Source of the DNA: Sulfurovum sp.
GTDB lineage: Bacteria > Campylobacterota > Campylobacteria > Campylobacterales > Sulfurovaceae
Assembly: GCA_027071315.1 (NCBI GenBank)
Contig: JALSUP010000033.1
Location: 1 to 41,832, forward strand
Direction: 5' to 3'
Length of the DNA: 41,832 bases
Below, piece after piece: positions 9,834-28,756 of this stretch (positions within the stretch are counted from its first letter, which is position 1; each line of letters opens with the position of its first letter). A program made the translations under genes and the position numbers. The notes beneath the pieces are model-generated. The model saw only the letters and a list, made by a program, of their open reading frames with translations. It was not told the origin of the DNA and made no database searches.

Positions 9834-9924
9834 GGTGCATTTCAATGCACCACAAAATCAAACTTGCATAAAATCAAAATTTTGCCGTAAGGCATAACAA
9901 AAGGTGCAATAAATTGCACCCTAC
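9830..9924. repeat. Paired GTAGGGTGCA element (type 2) between ymdB and dnaX
   Basis: Left arm 9830-9851 begins GTAGGGTGCATT and folds (GGTGCATT with AATGCACC). Right arm 9903-9924 ends AATTGCACCCTAC. A small central hairpin GCCG-TAA-GGC also occurs in the homologous copy at 34049-34142. The element provides the TAG stops of both ymdB (9831-9833) and dnaX (9921-9923, minus strand) and fills the whole intergenic space. Confidence 0.85.
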
Positions 9925-11906
9925 ACATTCTTTTTAATACGTACTTTTTTCGGGTCAAAGAGGGCGATCGCCTCTTTGATCATAGGCTCATTGAGCAGGG
10001 TAGAGGGATCTTTCTCTTTTGCCGCTTCCGTATCACCTGCTTCGGGTGCAATACAGGAACTCTTTATCTCCTCTTCAATCATTGAAGAAGTATCTGCATC
10101 CGCATGTGGTATATTCTCCTGAGGGGCAGGTTCATCCACCGTGGCTGTAGCAGCTGTATCGGCAGATAAATCTGCTTTAGCTGTCAGAGGTTCCGTTTTT
10201 TTTTTCGCTATATTGACAATTTTGGTTTCATAGCCAAAAATGTCTTTTACGAACATACCGATAAGACCCCAATGGGTAATGAGCTGTTTTTTATCTTCTC
10301 CCTCTGCAGAGGAACCCCATGTTAAGGTACCTTCTGTAAAACTTTCAAATTCAATATTGCGTTTAAAACATTCACCCAGGTCAAAATTACGGTCATAAAT
10401 TCTTTTGAGGAGTTCATCGAACATTTTCGATGAGCGTTCAGCATTCAGAGTTAAAGGGTCAGGGGAAGAGGGCTGCTCTGTTGTTTCAGTCTCAGGCAGT
10501 ATTTCTTCTACTTCTTCTCGTAGGGTGGATTCATCCACCGCTGACACCGCTGCTTTTGGTGTATCTGTCATAGGCATCTCAACGATAGGTTCAGGTTGCA
10601 CTGGCATTTCTGTTGATGTTTCAGTCATACTCTCAATGATTTTTTCTGTTTTTACTTCTTCTGCATTCGGTATTGAGGTGGATGAATCCACCCTACGCGT
10701 TGTGTCATTGACCACTTCTGACGGCTGAACGCTTGCCTTGGGTAATGTCGCAATGATTTCCTCTTCCGTAATGGTAATGACTTCATTGGGTGTTGTTCTG
10801 TCCTGATCAGGTGTGGTCACCATGATCTCTGTGACTTCCACGCCCTGAAGCTCTTTTTCCAGAGATCGGATCATCATATCGATATCTTTGATCTCCAGGG
10901 CTTCCATCATTTTAAAGAGAGAGAGGGTGAGGACGAATTCCCCGTCAGAACCCAGAGCCAAAAGTGCTTTGGAGTCGGCAATGACCCTGAAAAAACGTTC
11001 AATGGTCATAGCGGTGAATTTACTGTTCTGTGTGAGCAGAAGCTCTTTGAGGTAGAGTGTCAACTCATCAAGGATCATCTCTGCTTCATAGCCTGCTGCC
11101 AGTTTAATGAAGGCAAGAATTTTACTTTTGTCTTTATGTAAAATGTCATTGAGCAGGGCTTCGAGCAAAGAGGGGTCAATAATACCTAACATACCCGTAA
11201 CTGTCGCTACATCCACATGGTTTTTGGAGTAGACAATGGCCTGGTCAAGGAGGGTCAAAGAGTCTCTGAGTGAACCTGCACCCGTACGGGCAATGATCTC
11301 CAGTGCCTCTTTTTCGTATCCGACATTTTCCATATTTAAAATATGCTCAAGCTGTTTGAGTACAAGAGGTTGAGGGATTTTTTTAAATCTAAAGTGCTGG
11401 GTACGCGAAAGAATGGTCGCCGGCAGTTTCAAAGGGTCTGTGGTCGCCAAAATGAATTTGACAAAATCAGGCGGCTCTTCCAGGGTTTTAAGCAAAGCAT
11501 TAAAAGCCTGTGGTGTCAGCATATGGACTTCATCGATGATGAAGATCTTAAAGCGTGCCGAAGAGGGTTTATATTTGGTATGTTCTATGAGGTCTTTAAT
11601 GTCATCAATACCACGGTTGGAAGCCGCATCCATCTCTATGATGTCCATGTGTCTGTTCTCTGCAGCCATGACACAGTGGGTACAGACACCGCAGGGGTGG
11701 GAAGTGCTTCCTTTTTCACACAGTAAAGCTTTGGCAAAAATACGTGCAGTGGAAGTTTTTCCGCTTCCTCTGAGTCCGGAAAAAAGGTAGGCATGGGAGA
11801 GTCTGTTGGAGTCAAGTGCAAGAGAGAGGGTTTGAGAGACAGATTCCTGACCAATGAGGTCATCAAAGGTGGCAGGACGGTATTTTCTCGCTAGGGCTAA
11901 TGACAA
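9921..11906 (-). CDS. dnaX: DNA polymerase III subunits gamma/tau
   Basis: A 661-aa clamp-loader ATPase. Seen: Walker A GLRGSGKT at 44-51, zinc cysteines Cys63, Cys72, Cys75 and Cys78, Walker B/DExH segment IIDEVHMLTPQAFNALLKTL, and the sensor region ATTDPLKLPATILSRTQHF. After about residue 360 comes an acidic Thr/Glu/Pro-rich linker, which contains two GTAGGG hairpins translated in frame (about residues 404-410 and 456-463), then a conserved-looking C-terminal domain. The start is TTG at 11904-11906, well supported by GAGGAG on the minus strand. The stop is supplied by the repeat at 9830-9924. Confidence 0.94.
   Translation of the reverse strand: MSLALARKYRPATFDDLIGQESVSQTLSLALDSNRLSHAYLFSGLRGSGKTSTARIFAKALLCEKGSTSHPCGVCTHCVMAAENRHMDIIEMDAASNRGIDDIKDLIEHTKYKPSSARFKIFIIDEVHMLTPQAFNALLKTLEEPPDFVKFILATTDPLKLPATILSRTQHFRFKKIPQPLVLKQLEHILNMENVGYEKEALEIIARTGAGSLRDSLTLLDQAIVYSKNHVDVATVTGMLGIIDPSLLEALLNDILHKDKSKILAFIKLAAGYEAEMILDELTLYLKELLLTQNSKFTAMTIERFFRVIADSKALLALGSDGEFVLTLSLFKMMEALEIKDIDMMIRSLEKELQGVEVTEIMVTTPDQDRTTPNEVITITEEEIIATLPKASVQPSEVVNDTTRRVDSSTSIPNAEEVKTEKIIESMTETSTEMPVQPEPIVEMPMTDTPKAAVSAVDESTLREEVEEILPETETTEQPSSPDPLTLNAERSSKMFDELLKRIYDRNFDLGECFKRNIEFESFTEGTLTWGSSAEGEDKKQLITHWGLIGMFVKDIFGYETKIVNIAKKKTEPLTAKADLSADTAATATVDEPAPQENIPHADADTSSMIEEEIKSSCIAPEAGDTEAAKEKDPSTLLNEPMIKEAIALFDPKKVRIKKNV
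10520..10696. repeat. Two inverted GTAGGGTGGATT hairpins inside dnaX
   Basis: GTAGGGTGGATTCATCCACC at 10520-10539 and its exact reverse complement at 10677-10696. Each unit is itself a hairpin (GGTGGAT-TC-ATCCACC). Both are read in frame by dnaX, giving VDESTLRE and TRRVDSST. The stretch between them is ordinary Glu/Thr/Pro-rich coding sequence, and the outer span is 177 bases (59 codons). Confidence 0.8.
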
Positions 11907-15629: not shown

Positions 15630-16145
15630 ATGAAAAAATTATTCACTATTCACTATTCACTATTCACTCTCATAGCACTGCTATTAGTTTCCTGTGGCTA
15701 CAAGCCCTCTTCACAGTACATTCAAAAAATGTTTGACGATAAAGTCTATGTGGAGGTCGTGGTAGACAGGGCAGAACCTGAAAATGCACCCTTTGTAAAA
15801 GATGAAATGAACCGTCTGGTCTATACGCGTTTTAAAGGAAGAGTGACAACCAAAGAGGAAGCGGGAAGCAGCATACGTATTGCCTACAACGGTACGACCT
15901 TTACACCGCTTGCCTATGAGAATGGGTATGTGACACGCTACAGAGTCAATGTCAGAGTGAATTTTGATATGATGACAAAACAGGGAAGGCTCAAAAAGAA
16001 TATCTCTACCGTCTTTGAATCAGATATTCATGCAAGTTCAGCTACTTCCTCTGCTTTACGAACAGAAGCCATACGTAAAGGTTTAGAGAAAGCACTGGAT
16101 GAATTCTTAGCTTATGTTTCTGCAAAGTCAGCAAACACACCCTAA
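15630..16145 (+). CDS. lptE: LPS-assembly lipoprotein LptE-like
   Basis: A 171-aa predicted outer-membrane lipoprotein that would plug LptD during lipopolysaccharide export. Seen: a signal peptide with lipobox LVSC (cleavage before the Cys of CGYKPSS), then a beta-rich domain (SIRIAYNGTTFTPLAY, YVTRYRVNVRVNFDMM) like LptE. Position directly after leuS is the usual lptE locus in proteobacteria. The signal peptide is encoded by four tandem ATTCACT heptamers (15641-15668), giving the sequence FTIHYSLFT. The stop overlaps the folC start (TAATG). Confidence 0.78.
   Translation: MKKLFTIHYSLFTLIALLLVSCGYKPSSQYIQKMFDDKVYVEVVVDRAEPENAPFVKDEMNRLVYTRFKGRVTTKEEAGSSIRIAYNGTTFTPLAYENGYVTRYRVNVRVNFDMMTKQGRLKKNISTVFESDIHASSATSSALRTEAIRKGLEKALDEFLAYVSAKSANTP
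15641..15668 (+). repeat. 4 x 7-bp tandem repeat in lptE signal sequence
   Basis: ATTCACT is repeated four times without interruption, starting 12 bases after the start of the lptE ATG. Because 7 is not a multiple of three, gain or loss of one unit shifts the reading frame. The TBatC-like gene at 24656 encodes the same IHYSLFT peptide from a diverged version of the repeat (24683-24702). Confidence 0.85.
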
Positions 16146-17314
16146 TGAATAGAACACCCGTGTCATTAGTAGACTTTTTAGCAGGAAAACCTCTTTACTA
16201 TAAAGAGATTGACCATGCCCGTGTGCATCAAGCGTATGCACAGCTAAAACCGCATATAAGACATCCTAAAACAGTCCACATTGTGGGCACGAACGGTAAA
16301 GGCTCAACGGGGAGGATGCTTGCTCACTTGGCACAGGCTTCAGGCCTGCATGTCGGGCACTACTCTTCTCCTCATATTTTGAAATTCAACGAACGTATCT
16401 GGATAGACGGGGCGGATGCTTCCGATGAACTCTTAGAGCAGGGACATCAGAAACTTTTTATGCTTTTGGGGCAAAAGATGTCCGAGGCACTCTCCTATTT
16501 TGAATATACGACACTTTTAGGGTTGCTTGTCTTTGAAAATAGTGACCTGATGGTCCTGGAAGCGGGACTTGGCGGTGAATTTGATGCCACCAGTGTCTGC
16601 GATAAAGAGCTCTCTGTCATTACTCCGATTGGCATTGATCATCAGGCTTTTTTGGGTGAGAGCATCGAAGAGATCGCTGCAACAAAGATACGCAGTATTC
16701 AGAAGAGGGTTTTGTTGGCACCGCAGGTGTATGATGAGGTGCTTGGGGTGGCAAAAGAAATTACAAATAACGTAGGGGCAGACCTACGTGTCTGCCCAGG
16801 GATCGACACACAGGTCGACCCCTACGGGTTGAAAAATATCGCCAAGAAAAAAGGCTGGCCGGAATATCTTGTAGAAAATGCAGAGGTGGCCATACAGGCA
16901 TTAAATATTTTAAATATTTCTTACGATACAAATGATTTAAAAAGCATGGAACTCTTCGGCCGTTTTTATGCCTTAAAAGATAATATCCGTATTGACGTGG
17001 GGCACAATCCTTTGGCAGCACAAGCCATTGTAAAAGCAATGGAAAAAGAGACCGTACTGATTTATAACTCTTTGGATGACAAGGATTATGAAGAGGTACT
17101 GCGTATTTTAAAGCCTCAAGTAAAACGTGTGGAAATTATTCATATTGAATCACAGCGTGCTACGGTTTTGGAAGAGATCGAAAAGGCTTTGGAAAAGGCG
17201 GGCTTGCCTTATGGTGCATTTCAAAATGAGATCGATCAAAATGAACATTATCTTGTATTCGGGTCGTTCTATGTGGTGGAAGCATTTTTGAAATGTATGA
17301 AAGTCGGTGGATAG
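16145..17314 (+). CDS. folC: Folylpolyglutamate/dihydrofolate synthase
   Basis: A 389-aa Mur-ligase-family enzyme that adds glutamate to dihydropteroate and folates. Seen: P-loop GTNGKGST at 48-55, SSPHILKFNERIWIDG, LEAGLGGEFDATS, and ITPIGIDHQAFLG. Residues 210-227 (VGADLRVCPGIDTQVDPY) are exactly the translation of a GTAGGG palindromic element, an insertion relative to the family located before the C-terminal domain. The stop TAG is in the loop of a further hairpin (17306-17321). ATG overlaps the lptE stop by one base. Reads intact, so the insert seems tolerated. Confidence 0.92.
   Translation: MNRTPVSLVDFLAGKPLYYKEIDHARVHQAYAQLKPHIRHPKTVHIVGTNGKGSTGRMLAHLAQASGLHVGHYSSPHILKFNERIWIDGADASDELLEQGHQKLFMLLGQKMSEALSYFEYTTLLGLLVFENSDLMVLEAGLGGEFDATSVCDKELSVITPIGIDHQAFLGESIEEIAATKIRSIQKRVLLAPQVYDEVLGVAKEITNNVGADLRVCPGIDTQVDPYGLKNIAKKKGWPEYLVENAEVAIQALNILNISYDTNDLKSMELFGRFYALKDNIRIDVGHNPLAAQAIVKAMEKETVLIYNSLDDKDYEEVLRILKPQVKRVEIIHIESQRATVLEEIEKALEKAGLPYGAFQNEIDQNEHYLVFGSFYVVEAFLKCMKVGG
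16772..16825. repeat. In-frame GTAGGGG...CCCCTAC element inside folC (54 bp)
   Basis: The element begins GTAGGGGCAGAC and ends GTCGACCCCTAC. Two hairpins: GGGCAGAC-CTACGT-GTCTGCCC and GGGATCGAC-ACACAG-GTCGACCC(C). Its length is exactly 18 codons, and its first base is the first base of codon 210, so it keeps the folC frame. Confidence 0.85.
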
Positions 17315-23654: not shown

Positions 23655-24659
23655 ATGGAATTTGTAAACCCCTATCTTTTTTGGATACTGCTAGTCCCTT
23701 TTGTACTCTTTGCATTTTTGATCTCAACGAACAAAGAGCGTCTTTCCCGTATTTTTGATGAGAAGGTACTGGCGCGTTTGTCTGCGAGTTCCGAGAGTAT
23801 GCCTCTGAAGTTGAGAAATGTACTGATGTTCGCAGCGATTTTTTTAATGATCGTTGCATTGGCACGCCCGGTGAAAGAGTTGGAAGACAAAGTGGTACAT
23901 GTACAGGGGCTGACCCTGCTGACGGCACTTGATATTTCCGGTTCTATGCGGAGTACGGATGTCTACCCGAACCGTTTGACTTTAGCCAAAAAGAAGATGA
24001 ACCTCTTCTTTGATGAAATGCCAAGTGATGAGATCGGTGTGGTGGCATTTGCCTACAGTCCTTTCGTACTGGCACCTTTCTCTTCAGACAAAGAGACGCT
24101 TAAAATGATGGTCGACGGTGTGGATGACTCATACATCAATATGGGTTCCACAGACTACGTGGCACTTGGGGAGTTGGCGAACAAGCTGCTTGAAAAGAAA
24201 GATCCGAAGATCATGGTACTGTTTACCGATGGTGGTGATGAAGAAGCCGTTGCCGGTTTTGCAGATGTGCTCAAAGCCAATAAAATAGACCTTTATGTGG
24301 TACTGGTCGGTACAGACAAAGGGGCGCCTGTGCTTGATGAGAAGGGAAAACCTCTCATGAAGAAAGATGGTACCATTGCCATTACACAGCGTAACGATGC
24401 CCTTGGTCTTCTTGCCAAAGAGAACAACGGAGCCTATGTGGTCGCGGGTACAGGAAAAGAAGATATTGAAGATCTTGCCGCTGTCATTAAAGGAAAATAC
24501 AAAAAGCAGCAGAAGGGTGAGATCCGGGTAAAACAGAGAGTGGAGTATTTTTACTATCCGCTTGGATTAGGACTCTTTTTACTGCTGATCGGACTGAGTT
24601 CCCTGCCCAGATCAAGAAACAAAGAACAGATAGCTGACGGTAAGGGAGGTACAAAATGA
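23655..24659 (+). CDS. batB: VWA-domain membrane protein, BatB-like
   Basis: A 334-aa paralogue of the preceding protein, with the same layout: two N-terminal membrane segments (about 7-23 and 55-70), VWA domain with DISGS at 93-97 and LFTDGGDEE, and a C-terminal membrane segment (YYPLGLGLFLLLIGLSSL). The ATG follows the batA TAG with no gap (GGAGTG is the ribosome binding site), and its TGA overlaps the next ATG. Confidence 0.88.
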   Translation: MEFVNPYLFWILLVPFVLFAFLISTNKERLSRIFDEKVLARLSASSESMPLKLRNVLMFAAIFLMIVALARPVKELEDKVVHVQGLTLLTALDISGSMRSTDVYPNRLTLAKKKMNLFFDEMPSDEIGVVAFAYSPFVLAPFSSDKETLKMMVDGVDDSYINMGSTDYVALGELANKLLEKKDPKIMVLFTDGGDEEAVAGFADVLKANKIDLYVVLVGTDKGAPVLDEKGKPLMKKDGTIAITQRNDALGLLAKENNGAYVVAGTGKEDIEDLAAVIKGKYKKQQKGEIRVKQRVEYFYYPLGLGLFLLLIGLSSLPRSRNKEQIADGKGGTK

Positions 24660-25627
24660 AAAAACTGATTTTACTCTTGACGATTCACTATTCCTTATTT
24701 ACGATGCTTAATGCAGGATTGACAGATTTTAAAACCATACAAGAGGCGGAAGATGCCTATAATGCAAAAGCATACACCAAAAGTGCGGCACTCTATAACG
24801 GTTTGGAAGTGAAATCGGGTGAGAAAGCCTATGATGTGGGAAATGCCTATTATAAGTCTAAAAACTATGATGCAGCGATTAAATACTATAAGAAAGCCAA
24901 AGGGGTAGACAAAGCCACACGTCTTCACAATGTGGGAAATGCCTATTTTCAGAAGAAAGATCTGGATAAAGCCATAAAGAGTTACAAAGAAGCCTTGAAG
25001 ATACGGGAAGACAAAGAGACCCGTTTCAACCTTGACCTTGCCAAAAAAATGAAAAAGAAGAAAGAAGAGAAAAAAAAGCAGGATCAGAAGAAGAAAGATC
25101 AAAAGAAGAAGCAAGATCAGAAGAACAAAGATCAAAAAGATCAGCAGAACAAAGGTGATCAGAAAAAGAAAGATGACCAGCAGAAGAAAAAAGACGATCA
25201 AAACAAAAAAGATGATCAAAAGAAGAAGGACGATCAGAAGAAGAAAGATGATCAAAAAAAGAAAGACGAAAATAAAAAAGGAAAGAACAAAAAAGACCAA
25301 AAAGATAAAAAAGATCAAAAAAAGAAAGATAAAGAGGGTCAGAAAAAAGACAAAAAGAGCGAACAGGACAAGAAAAAAGAGAAAGATAAAAAAGAGGGTG
25401 ACAAAGACAAGGGAGATTCCAAAAACGAGAAGAACCCCCAGGACAAAAAGGGAGATAAAGCTTCCGGTCAGCCAAAGGCTCAAAAAATGAGTAAAAAAGA
25501 GAAACTCAAACAGCAGGAGATGAAGAGACTCCTGAAAAAAATGAAGCAGAAAGGGACACCCACAATGATGTACCAGATGGGTGATAAGAAAAAATCAAAG
25601 CGGAGCGGCAATGCAAACCCATGGTAA
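24656..25627 (+). CDS. batC: TPR protein with lysine-rich tail, BatC-like
   Basis: A 323-aa exported protein. Signal peptide MKKLILLLTIHYSLFTMLNAG, then two to three tetratricopeptide units (residues about 28-125, e.g. AYDVGNAYYKSKNYDAAIKYY and HNVGNAYFQKKDLDKAIKSY). From about residue 129 to 285 the chain is almost only Lys, Asp, Gln and Glu (repeats such as KKDDQKKKDDQ), and it ends with a less biased 40-residue tail. BatC proteins commonly have TPRs and a charged tail, but this one is long. The IHYSLFT peptide is shared with LptE. ATGA overlap with batB. Confidence 0.85.
   Translation: MKKLILLLTIHYSLFTMLNAGLTDFKTIQEAEDAYNAKAYTKSAALYNGLEVKSGEKAYDVGNAYYKSKNYDAAIKYYKKAKGVDKATRLHNVGNAYFQKKDLDKAIKSYKEALKIREDKETRFNLDLAKKMKKKKEEKKKQDQKKKDQKKKQDQKNKDQKDQQNKGDQKKKDDQQKKKDDQNKKDDQKKKDDQKKKDDQKKKDENKKGKNKKDQKDKKDQKKKDKEGQKKDKKSEQDKKKEKDKKEGDKDKGDSKNEKNPQDKKGDKASGQPKAQKMSKKEKLKQQEMKRLLKKMKQKGTPTMMYQMGDKKKSKRSGNANPW
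25040..25510 (+). repeat. A-rich low-complexity coding repeat in batC
   Basis: About 470 bases of imperfect GATCARAARAAGAAA-type units encoding Lys/Asp/Gln-rich sequence. The + strand is over half adenine. Units are irregular, so the repeat has diverged but could still change length by slippage or recombination. Confidence 0.7.
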
Positions 25628-27173
25628 TAGCGGTATTTACAGATCACTGTTTATACTTTTAATACTGTGTACCTTTAGTGCTGCTTCCGAATCGGAAATG
25701 GAACACTTTTCCTTTGCCCATGAAGTGAAAGTACTCGTTTCCGATACCGAGATCGTTGCAGGGCATGTTATACGGCTAAAGATCAGAGCAACAGGTGATA
25801 AAGTCGTATTTCCTACTATTGATGAAATAGACGGGGTTAAGGTCCTGGACAGTGAGGAGAGGGTCACCAATATGTTTCACTATGTCAATGGTGTCTTGAA
25901 GAAAGAGCGTACCACACTCATTTTGACTTTTGCACCGTATCATGATATGACCATCCCTTCTTATGATATTGATATCGATGGGAAAATATATAAAAGTGAA
26001 TCTGTGAAGATCAAAGTGATGGGGGCAAATGCCAAAACGATTGAAGACGGGAATAAATTCTTTTTACATCTCGAAACAGATAAACAGTCTGTGATCGTGG
26101 GAGAACCGATCCTGGCCACTGTCAAGTTTTCTTTAAAAGTGGGCATAAGAGTGACCGAGAACCCCCAATATACCAAACCCACTTTTAAAGGTTTTTTTTC
26201 AAAAGAGGTCGGTGATGAAAAAGAGTATGCCAAAGGCAACCGTCAAATCACGGAGATGAAATACCTGTTGACCCCTCTCTCTGAAGGGACTTTTAAAATA
26301 GGACCGGCAAGAGCCAAAATTGGTCTGGCAGACAAAAACAGGCGTGATATGTTCGGAAGATTTATTGGTACGACCTGGCACCCCATTGCTTCAAACAGAG
26401 TGGAGATAAAAGTGGCAAAGAAACCACAAGAGAGTGATCTTGTAGGGACATTCAGCATAGAGCATACACTCGATAAAAAGAGTGTCAAAGCCAACAGGCC
26501 TGTCAATCTGACGGTTAAAATAACGGGCAATGGTATTTTTGAGGATTTTGAATTTCCGGACTATGAGATAGACGGTGTGACCGTTTACAGTGATGATGCC
26601 GAGATCGAATCCAAGGTAGAGAATAATGCGCTTGACAGTCGTTATGTCAAACGTTTTGTTTTTATTTCAGACAAAGATTTCAGCATACCTGCACGGCATA
26701 TTTCCGTGTTCGATATGAAAAGTCAAACGCTCAAATATTTGGATATTCCCGCCTATGATGTGCATGTAGAAAACAGACAGGCTCTGGCTTCGCCTAAACC
26801 TCAGGCAAGGATACCGGGTGCAGGGAAGGTACATAGTAACCTGGAGATCCCAAAAAGATCGATGCTTGACACAGAGGACAACAGAGGCTTGCCTCAAGTG
26901 CGGTCTGCTCCCTGGTGGCTGATAGTACTGGCCTTTCTTGCAGGGATACTTGTGATGTATCTGTTGAAGTCTCTTCTTTCTCTGCAATGGAAGAAAAAAG
27001 GCAGAACAGTGAACGAGTCTGAAGCACTTGGTATACTCTATGCCTGTGTCAATGCCTCTCCGGAAGTTGAAGAGATGGTACGGAAACTCTATGCGAAGAA
27101 AAATGGCGATACAGGTATTGTCATTGATAAAAAACAATTGAAACGCTTGGTAGAAAAATATGATAAGCAATAA
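25611..27173 (+). CDS. batD: BatD-like protein, first paralogue
   Basis: A 520-aa exported protein: signal peptide (YRSLFILLILCTFSAASES), a long beta-sandwich periplasmic part (VGEPILATVKFSLKVGIRVTENP; RDMFGRFIGTTWHPIASN), a membrane segment at about 435-455 (WWLIVLAFLAGILVMYLL) and a short cytoplasmic tail. BatD proteins scaffold the Bat VWA proteins. Start ATG at 25611 overlaps batC by 17 bases, and a purine-rich GGAG precedes it. The upstream in-frame ATG at 25581 would put a hydrophilic stretch before the signal peptide. Confidence 0.85.
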   Translation: MQTHGNSGIYRSLFILLILCTFSAASESEMEHFSFAHEVKVLVSDTEIVAGHVIRLKIRATGDKVVFPTIDEIDGVKVLDSEERVTNMFHYVNGVLKKERTTLILTFAPYHDMTIPSYDIDIDGKIYKSESVKIKVMGANAKTIEDGNKFFLHLETDKQSVIVGEPILATVKFSLKVGIRVTENPQYTKPTFKGFFSKEVGDEKEYAKGNRQITEMKYLLTPLSEGTFKIGPARAKIGLADKNRRDMFGRFIGTTWHPIASNRVEIKVAKKPQESDLVGTFSIEHTLDKKSVKANRPVNLTVKITGNGIFEDFEFPDYEIDGVTVYSDDAEIESKVENNALDSRYVKRFVFISDKDFSIPARHISVFDMKSQTLKYLDIPAYDVHVENRQALASPKPQARIPGAGKVHSNLEIPKRSMLDTEDNRGLPQVRSAPWWLIVLAFLAGILVMYLLKSLLSLQWKKKGRTVNESEALGILYACVNASPEVEEMVRKLYAKKNGDTGIVIDKKQLKRLVEKYDKQ

Positions 27174-27223
27174 TTTAGGAATAGTTACAATGAATCACAT
27201 TAAAAAAACACAAAGGAGTGAAA

Positions 27224-28756
27224 ATGAAAAAATTTGCTAAAACAGGCATTATAAAAACGTTATTCACACTGTTCATACTAGTGACAATGGTCTATGGTGC
27301 CGGTGTGAAAGCCACACTTTCAAGTACAGAGATTGTCCAGGGAAATATGGCACAGTTAAAAATCCAAGCTGTGGGAGACAGGGTCTCTTTCCCTAACATT
27401 GAAGAGATTTCCGGTGTACCGGTATTGGGGCGACATCAGAGTCAAAACAACTCCTATACCTATATTAACGGTCAAATGTCCAATGAGCACGCTACCACGC
27501 TGGTCTTGACTTTTGCGCCGCAGAAAGACATGACGATTTCCTCTTTCAATGTCGAGATAGATGGAAAAACCTATCAGACAAAGCCCTTAGCGCTTAAAGT
27601 AGTCAAAGCATCTGCACCGGACATGGGTGATCAGAAGTTTTCTCTTAAACTCAGAGCCGCTAAAAAATCTGTACTGGTAGGCGAACCCTTTTTGGCAACG
27701 GTCTATTTTTCTCTGCAGCACGGGGTAAGAATGTCAGAAAATCCCCAATACAACAAACCGGAGTTCAACGGGTTTTTTGTAGAAGAGATCGCTGATGAAA
27801 AGAGTTACAATGAAGGCAATCATCAGGTCACAGAGTTGAGATACATACTGACGCCTAAAGAGGAAGGTAATTTTACGGTAGGACCGGCCACTGCCAAAGT
27901 AGCGGTAGCAGACCGAAACAGACGTGATATGTTCGGAAGATTCTTTGGTTCGACCTGGTACCCGATCGCTTCCAATACGGTGACTGTTGAGGTTAAAAAG
28001 AAACCTAAAGATACCGATCTGATCGGTCACTTTCAGATGAAACAGAGTATTGACAATCAAAAGGTCAAAGCCAATAAGCCGCTCAACCTTCACATTGAAA
28101 TTTCAGGTGAGGGGAGTCTTGAAGGTTTTGAATTCCCTGCCTATGAAATAGACGGTGTGACCATTTACAGTGATGATGCCAAAATCAGCACCGGCCTGCA
28201 GGGGGAGAAGATCCACAGCAGCTATGTCAAAAGTTTTGCCTTTATCGCCGACCATGATTTTACGATACCCGCAAGAAAGATCTCTGTGTATGATCTTGAG
28301 AGTAAAACAGTCAAATATCTGGAGATCCCCTCTTATGATATCACTGTAGAGGGAGGTGCTTCTGTTGCCCAGACCTTAGCTCCAAAGAGTCATACACCAA
28401 GTGGTAAAGTACAGACCAATTTAAAACAGGCAGAAAAATCGATGCTTGATGACGGTACGCCAAAAAATGCTGTTGAAAAAAACAGTACAGAGTGGTGGAT
28501 GGTCATTTTGGCTTTTGTATCGGGAATGATCGTAATGGTGCTCTGGCGTGCTTTACCGAAAGGTAAAAAGAGTGGACACAGAGGAAAGTACAGCGAAGCA
28601 GAAGCACTGAAGATCCTCTACTCGCATATGAGTGAATCTCCTGAAATTGAAGCCATGGTGCGAAAACTCTATCGCAGGAAAAATGGAGACAAGAGTGTTG
28701 TCATTGACAAAAATGAATTAAATACCATGGTGGCAAATTTAGAACGTTCACGCTAG
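27224..28756 (+). CDS. BatD-like protein, second paralogue
   Basis: A 510-aa protein homologous over its whole length to the preceding BatD. Shared blocks include RDMFGRFxGxTWxPIASN, YEIDGVTxYSDDA, and a C-terminal membrane segment at about 423-444 (WWMVILAFVSGMIVMVLW) followed by a SEAxxILY...SPEIEAMVRKLY tail. Signal peptide near residues 8-27. AAAGGAG supports the ATG at 27224 over the in-frame GTG at 27218. The pair is a tandem duplication, diverged enough to be old. Last gene of the bat cluster. Confidence 0.85.
   Translation: MKKFAKTGIIKTLFTLFILVTMVYGAGVKATLSSTEIVQGNMAQLKIQAVGDRVSFPNIEEISGVPVLGRHQSQNNSYTYINGQMSNEHATTLVLTFAPQKDMTISSFNVEIDGKTYQTKPLALKVVKASAPDMGDQKFSLKLRAAKKSVLVGEPFLATVYFSLQHGVRMSENPQYNKPEFNGFFVEEIADEKSYNEGNHQVTELRYILTPKEEGNFTVGPATAKVAVADRNRRDMFGRFFGSTWYPIASNTVTVEVKKKPKDTDLIGHFQMKQSIDNQKVKANKPLNLHIEISGEGSLEGFEFPAYEIDGVTIYSDDAKISTGLQGEKIHSSYVKSFAFIADHDFTIPARKISVYDLESKTVKYLEIPSYDITVEGGASVAQTLAPKSHTPSGKVQTNLKQAEKSMLDDGTPKNAVEKNSTEWWMVILAFVSGMIVMVLWRALPKGKKSGHRGKYSEAEALKILYSHMSESPEIEAMVRKLYRRKNGDKSVVIDKNELNTMVANLERSR

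Follow-up and report, generated by a model that had tools for sequence, protein, structure and literature searches.

A translated GTAG REP doublet stands in for a native strand-loop segment, at the same length, in a repeatedly occupied part of Sulfurovum FolC

The conversion of selfish DNA into protein sequence has mostly been discussed on the basis of single insertions. The folC gene of a Sulfurovum sp. contig (JALSUP010000033.1; the window, a stretch of 41,832 nucleotides that was analysed whole) raises the question of how a palindromic repeat comes to be translated within an enzyme and what becomes of the sequence that was there before. The window FolC scored 270.7 bits against the NCBIfam folC model TIGR01499 (cut-off 162.65), and its modelled fold is that of a folylpolyglutamate synthase, matching the H. 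pylori enzyme 6k8c with a Z of 41.1 and an rmsd of 2.6 over 366 residues. The first-pass annotation of this DNA had reported a 54-bp palindrome starting at an exact codon boundary while the rest of FolC stayed readable; both points were confirmed, with codon 210 (GTA) at 16772, codon 227 ending in TAC and the ORF intact (Table 1).

Table 1. Features of the window discussed in the text
Feature	Position	Strand	Remarks
folC (folylpolyglutamate synthase) ORF	16145..17314	+	389 aa, intact; NCBIfam TIGR01499; fold match 6k8c
FolC variable segment (about residues 205-238)	16757..16858	+	several palindrome families here in relatives
54-bp GTAG REP doublet (REPIN-like)	16772..16825	+	in frame, residues 210-227, VGADLRVCPGIDTQVDPY
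REP unit 1: GTAG and hairpin GGGCAGAC/GTCTGCCC	16772..16797	+	codes for VGADLRVC and the start of codon P218
REP unit 2, inverted, GTAGGGGTCGACCTGTGTGTCGATCCC	16799..16825	-	codes for the loop ..IDTQVDPY
Translated REP doublet, GTAGGGTGGATTCATCCACC arms, in the dnaX linker	10520..10696		dnaX at 9921-11906, minus strand

The element consists of two GTAG REP hairpins placed head to head in inverted orientation. Its 54 nt fold into two adjacent hairpins (z of -4.5 as DNA and -4.9 as RNA), none of 200 shuffles folded equally well, and the RNA hairpins reach -28.8 kcal/mol. In an alignment of eight 54-nt copies, which is the whole basis of the covariation figures, the first hairpin is 98% paired and helix 2 (unit 2) has 87.5% of its cells paired, with three pairs showing compensatory change. 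The element starts with GTAG, not CGTC, and continues with a short GC-rich hairpin, as GTAG REPs do; two inverted REPs form one unit, as in REPINs, which are inverted REP doublets associated with RAYT genes (Bertels and Rainey, 2011; PMC3116915). The folC element shares the doublet structure, and a RAYT association in so far as RAYT-like genes of relatives carry its unit. REPINs are, however, extragenic and numerous, whereas this copy sits within folC and its own genome holds three units; because it lies inside the gene we class it as a GTAG REP doublet only, despite its REPIN anatomy. A parallel with Rickettsia palindromic elements had also been proposed, and this stands in so far as a palindrome is likewise translated inside likely functional proteins. 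It does not extend to the kind of repeat: here two GTAG REPs form the doublet and related RAYT genes exist, whereas RPE-4 and RPE-6 are assigned to the CGTC class in PMC3733652, a contrast drawn by class description.

Within the window, GTAGGGG occurs 11 times against 2.1 expected (0/100 shuffles), and the folC element is the sole exact match to GTAGGGG-N(10-40)-CCCCTAC in the 2.59-Mb genome to which it belongs. Two further copies of its left unit are present in that genome, three in total, which is low for a REP family; up to 13 copies occur in relatives, and the unit is thus repeated within genomes as GTAG REPs are. Scanning 78 genus genomes for the left unit gave 115 matches in 25 genomes, and a reversed-pattern control over the same 78 gave zero; this census was built from pattern searches and retrieved sequence stretches, and the named relatives are MAGs. 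The whole 54-bp doublet was also found away from long ORFs in L136, L160, L162, L170 and L217, so the FolC element represents the entire unit rather than a piece of one. Doublets of the VGADL-unit family in FolC are 54, 72 or 93 nt long; multiples of three were not favoured among doublets away from long ORFs (remainder 0/1/2 = 15/10/17). The first-pass annotation had linked the element with a family of intergenic repeats; the same 54-bp form is extragenic in relatives, and the remaining window repeats belong to other REP families (GTAGGGGTGCCCC, GTAGGGTGCA).

The element had been taken to add 18 residues to FolC, which is wrong as a net change. The window FolC aligns without gaps across the element region to the FolC of element-free L027. 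Counted from LLAPQ to the W of KGW, six of the nine carriers measured have 43 aa, and the median for 38 FolCs lacking any recognised element is 42 aa. AlphaFold models of the window and L027 proteins (mean pLDDT 80.2 and 83.2 respectively) both have a beta-strand at 213-216, which is DLRV, from the element, in the former and the native KLFL in the latter; the helix after the loop begins at 229 and 224 respectively. In the window model the pLDDT of the element region is about 68-79, falling below 50 at residues 220-222. As modelled, the first half of the element is a beta-strand and only the second half is loop, whereas a surface loop had originally been expected.

Loss of the native strand depends on which element is present. 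All 13 tested elements starting GTAGGGGCA share one common start codon and lack the native GAxL strand, whereas each of the six elements of other sequence retains the native strand upstream (displacement in 13/13 versus 0/6; Fisher p about 4e-5, calculated by hand and after the data had been seen). This pattern can mean short-homology conversion at the native GGGGCA/GGTGCA, or that only a strand-like peptide permits the strand to be lost. A possible scar is seen in L090, which reads GTAGGGGCAG where relatives read AAAGGTGCAG. The element would persist for two reasons: it keeps the reading phase and contains no stop, and its GTA GGG GCA GAC CTx reads VGADL, which resembles the beginning of the native strand, KGAxL, so that the native segment could disappear with the length unchanged. 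A more specific idea, which we offer tentatively, is that the selfish REP peptide mimics the native beta-strand (VGADLxV for KGAxLxV) and shares GGGGCA with its target, giving in-register replacement, and that this site in FolC lies permanently open to entry by several families.

The element in the window is not a one-off, as unrelated palindromes occupy the same site in relatives. The VGADL doublet peptide was found in 10/67 genus FolCs (G000, G008, G033, G035, G046, G047, G055, G056, G057 and G067), in agreement with the initial expectation that it would be absent from most; given this distribution and the pairing of the first hairpin, family-wide conservation of the peptide without a palindromic coding sequence was not what we saw. 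At least six repeat families occupy the loop across the 67 genus genomes with FolC, the others including GTAGGGGCATCCCTTGTGG (VGASL), GTAGGGGACAACC, GTAGGGTGTTGTC, GTAGGGTCGATG and GTAGGAGTAGG, together with an CTTCGACAGGCTCAG repeat and an CATTCCGG..CCGGAAT repeat, with families and start points assigned by eye and by fixed patterns. Hairpins in FolC coding sequences are concentrated here (41/46 matches fall within the loop, overlapping matches counted). No other part of FolC varies as much as the loop, as would suit a palindrome that arose by chance under weak constraint and resembles repeats by coincidence; we rejected this reading as next to impossible in view of that hairpin clustering, near-identical 26-mers elsewhere in the genus, a fold z below -4.5 and the recurrence of the whole 54-bp doublet outside genes. 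The strength of the RNA hairpins and the compensatory pairs in unit 2 would be in keeping with a selected RNA or DNA role of the hairpin in folC (translation pausing or mRNA decay), the peptide being merely tolerated. However, most FolCs have no hairpin in the loop and different families are found at the same site, so no fixed hairpin is needed, and we regard such a role as very unlikely.

A FolC tree from which the loop had been left out required at least 24 changes of element type, 18 for any element versus none and seven for VGADL; forcing the nine placed VGADL carriers into one clade was rejected (p-AU 6.9e-5). Three different repeats are carried by L069, L076 and L077, whose flanking DNA is 87-92% identical. 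Carriers share identical codons at a rate of 0.89 in unit 1 and 0.51 elsewhere in FolC, unit 1 being the more alike in every one of the 45 pairs, which indicates that the element is younger than the divergence of the gene or has been kept alike at the DNA level; hairpin constraint could be an alternative source of this identity, and exchange of folC alleles between species could mean fewer independent insertions. The identical start codon of all VGADL and VGASL elements and their nearly identical unit 1 codons could also be explained by a single ancient insertion that was inherited vertically and homogenised by gene conversion with further copies in the genome as donors, the remaining families arriving later. 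We consider this improbable, as the carriers are scattered over the tree and do not form one clade, and as elements of the other families leave the native strand intact upstream of them and so did not overwrite a VGADL element.

RAYT (Y1/HUH) transposases are thought to move such REP doublets as single-stranded DNA. The genome containing the window has seven Y1_Tnp matches, and of the three tested, L005 and L007 exceeded the NCBIfam RAYT cut-off while L003 reached 72.7 bits against 80. Loci L005, L006 and L007 adjoin GTAGGGTG-type REPs, and L003 sits among arrayed GTAGGGGTGCCCC and GTAGGGGCAATCCC units, the family to which most intergenic repeats of the window belong. In the relatives L183, L212 and L218, RAYT-like genes contain units of the folC family (the L218 RAYT has 59 bits to NF047646, under the 80-bit cut-off). 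This RAYT clade and the folC-family unit co-occur (8/9 versus 17/69 genomes; Fisher p 3e-4, with groups defined after the data had been seen). RAYTs of the clade carry in-frame REP doublets just past the HUH motif, of families that differ between genomes; the ORFs concerned are L218:708-1343, L292:1378-2100, L294:1275-2021 and L293:1501-2103, in each of which the transposase gene seems to contain its own substrate.

We consider it likely, with good confidence, that a REPIN-like GTAG doublet came into the folC strand-loop segment and replaced the native segment at the same length, and that this segment has often been re-colonised. A complete REPIN-like doublet, possibly moved by a RAYT, would have landed in the segment of folC that codes for a short beta-strand and the following loop; replacement may have taken place by insertion beside the native GGGGCA/GGTGCA and subsequent deletion, or by short-homology conversion from another copy, and several repeat families would re-colonise the segment often. 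FolC presumably still works. The presence of only three unit copies in its own genome, and of arrays of other families at its own RAYTs, counts against this explanation; because those arrays belong to other families, the folC copy is probably a relic there.

Among literature on intragenic REPINs, Rickettsia palindromic elements and Sulfurovum REPs, one close paper was found (Di Nocera et al., 2013; PMC3733652); RepRanger (PMC12306157) leaves intragenic REPs aside. The former describes GTAG palindromes in frame in housekeeping and repair genes, dimers coding for 20-30 aa, and RAYT genes; names Sulfurovum sp. NBC37-1 as a carrier of GTAG and CGTC repeats; and reports that recB of two Xanthomonas species contains different REPs at roughly the same position. 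REPs inside genes, repair genes included, and a same-site pair are thus already known, and the folC element resembles those GTAG repeats in its in-frame palindromes and RAYT genes. It differs in that several families occupy a single loop throughout a genus, with occupation counted on a tree and the native strand replaced at the same length. The main text of that paper does not mention folC, priA, mutY or recG, and neither occupation of FolC by REPs nor tree-based counts were found in the open-access literature; recurrent occupation with same-length strand replacement looks new. One enzyme segment here supplies many replicate natural experiments, since close relatives differ in the repeat they carry, retain remnants or lack an element, and FolC itself thus allows tolerance, register and mechanism to be compared and tested; the gene is a natural test of how selfish DNA turns into protein.

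Other proteins carry the signature too, for which the first-pass annotation had suggested a search: the folC-element unit is read in frame within priA (five genomes), mutY, recG, dnaX, lnt, anmK, hisH and RAYT genes. The priA doublets of this family lie in about the same PriA linker (L142, L165, L186, L192 and L213), and relative G008 has one in dnaX. The published impression that intragenic REPs are found preferentially in genes for replication and repair gains PriA, MutY, DnaX and RecG as further cases. A MutY segment of 15 residues is lengthened to 22-37 in about 30 genomes, and in most of these a REP unit can be recognised; one mutY loop holds a single, reverse-oriented unit (GQTHGSAPT and variants) in about 30 genomes of the genus (L224-L290), including that of the window (L215/L224). 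Unlike FolC, the MutY case is a real insertion. Elsewhere in the window, a Lys/Asp/Gln-rich repeat array (25034-25430) lies within ORF 24656-25627, and two similar neighbouring ORFs of 530 and 512 aa (25581-28756), whose DNA has blocks 71-76% identical at a spacing of about 1580 bp, are likely a tandem duplication.
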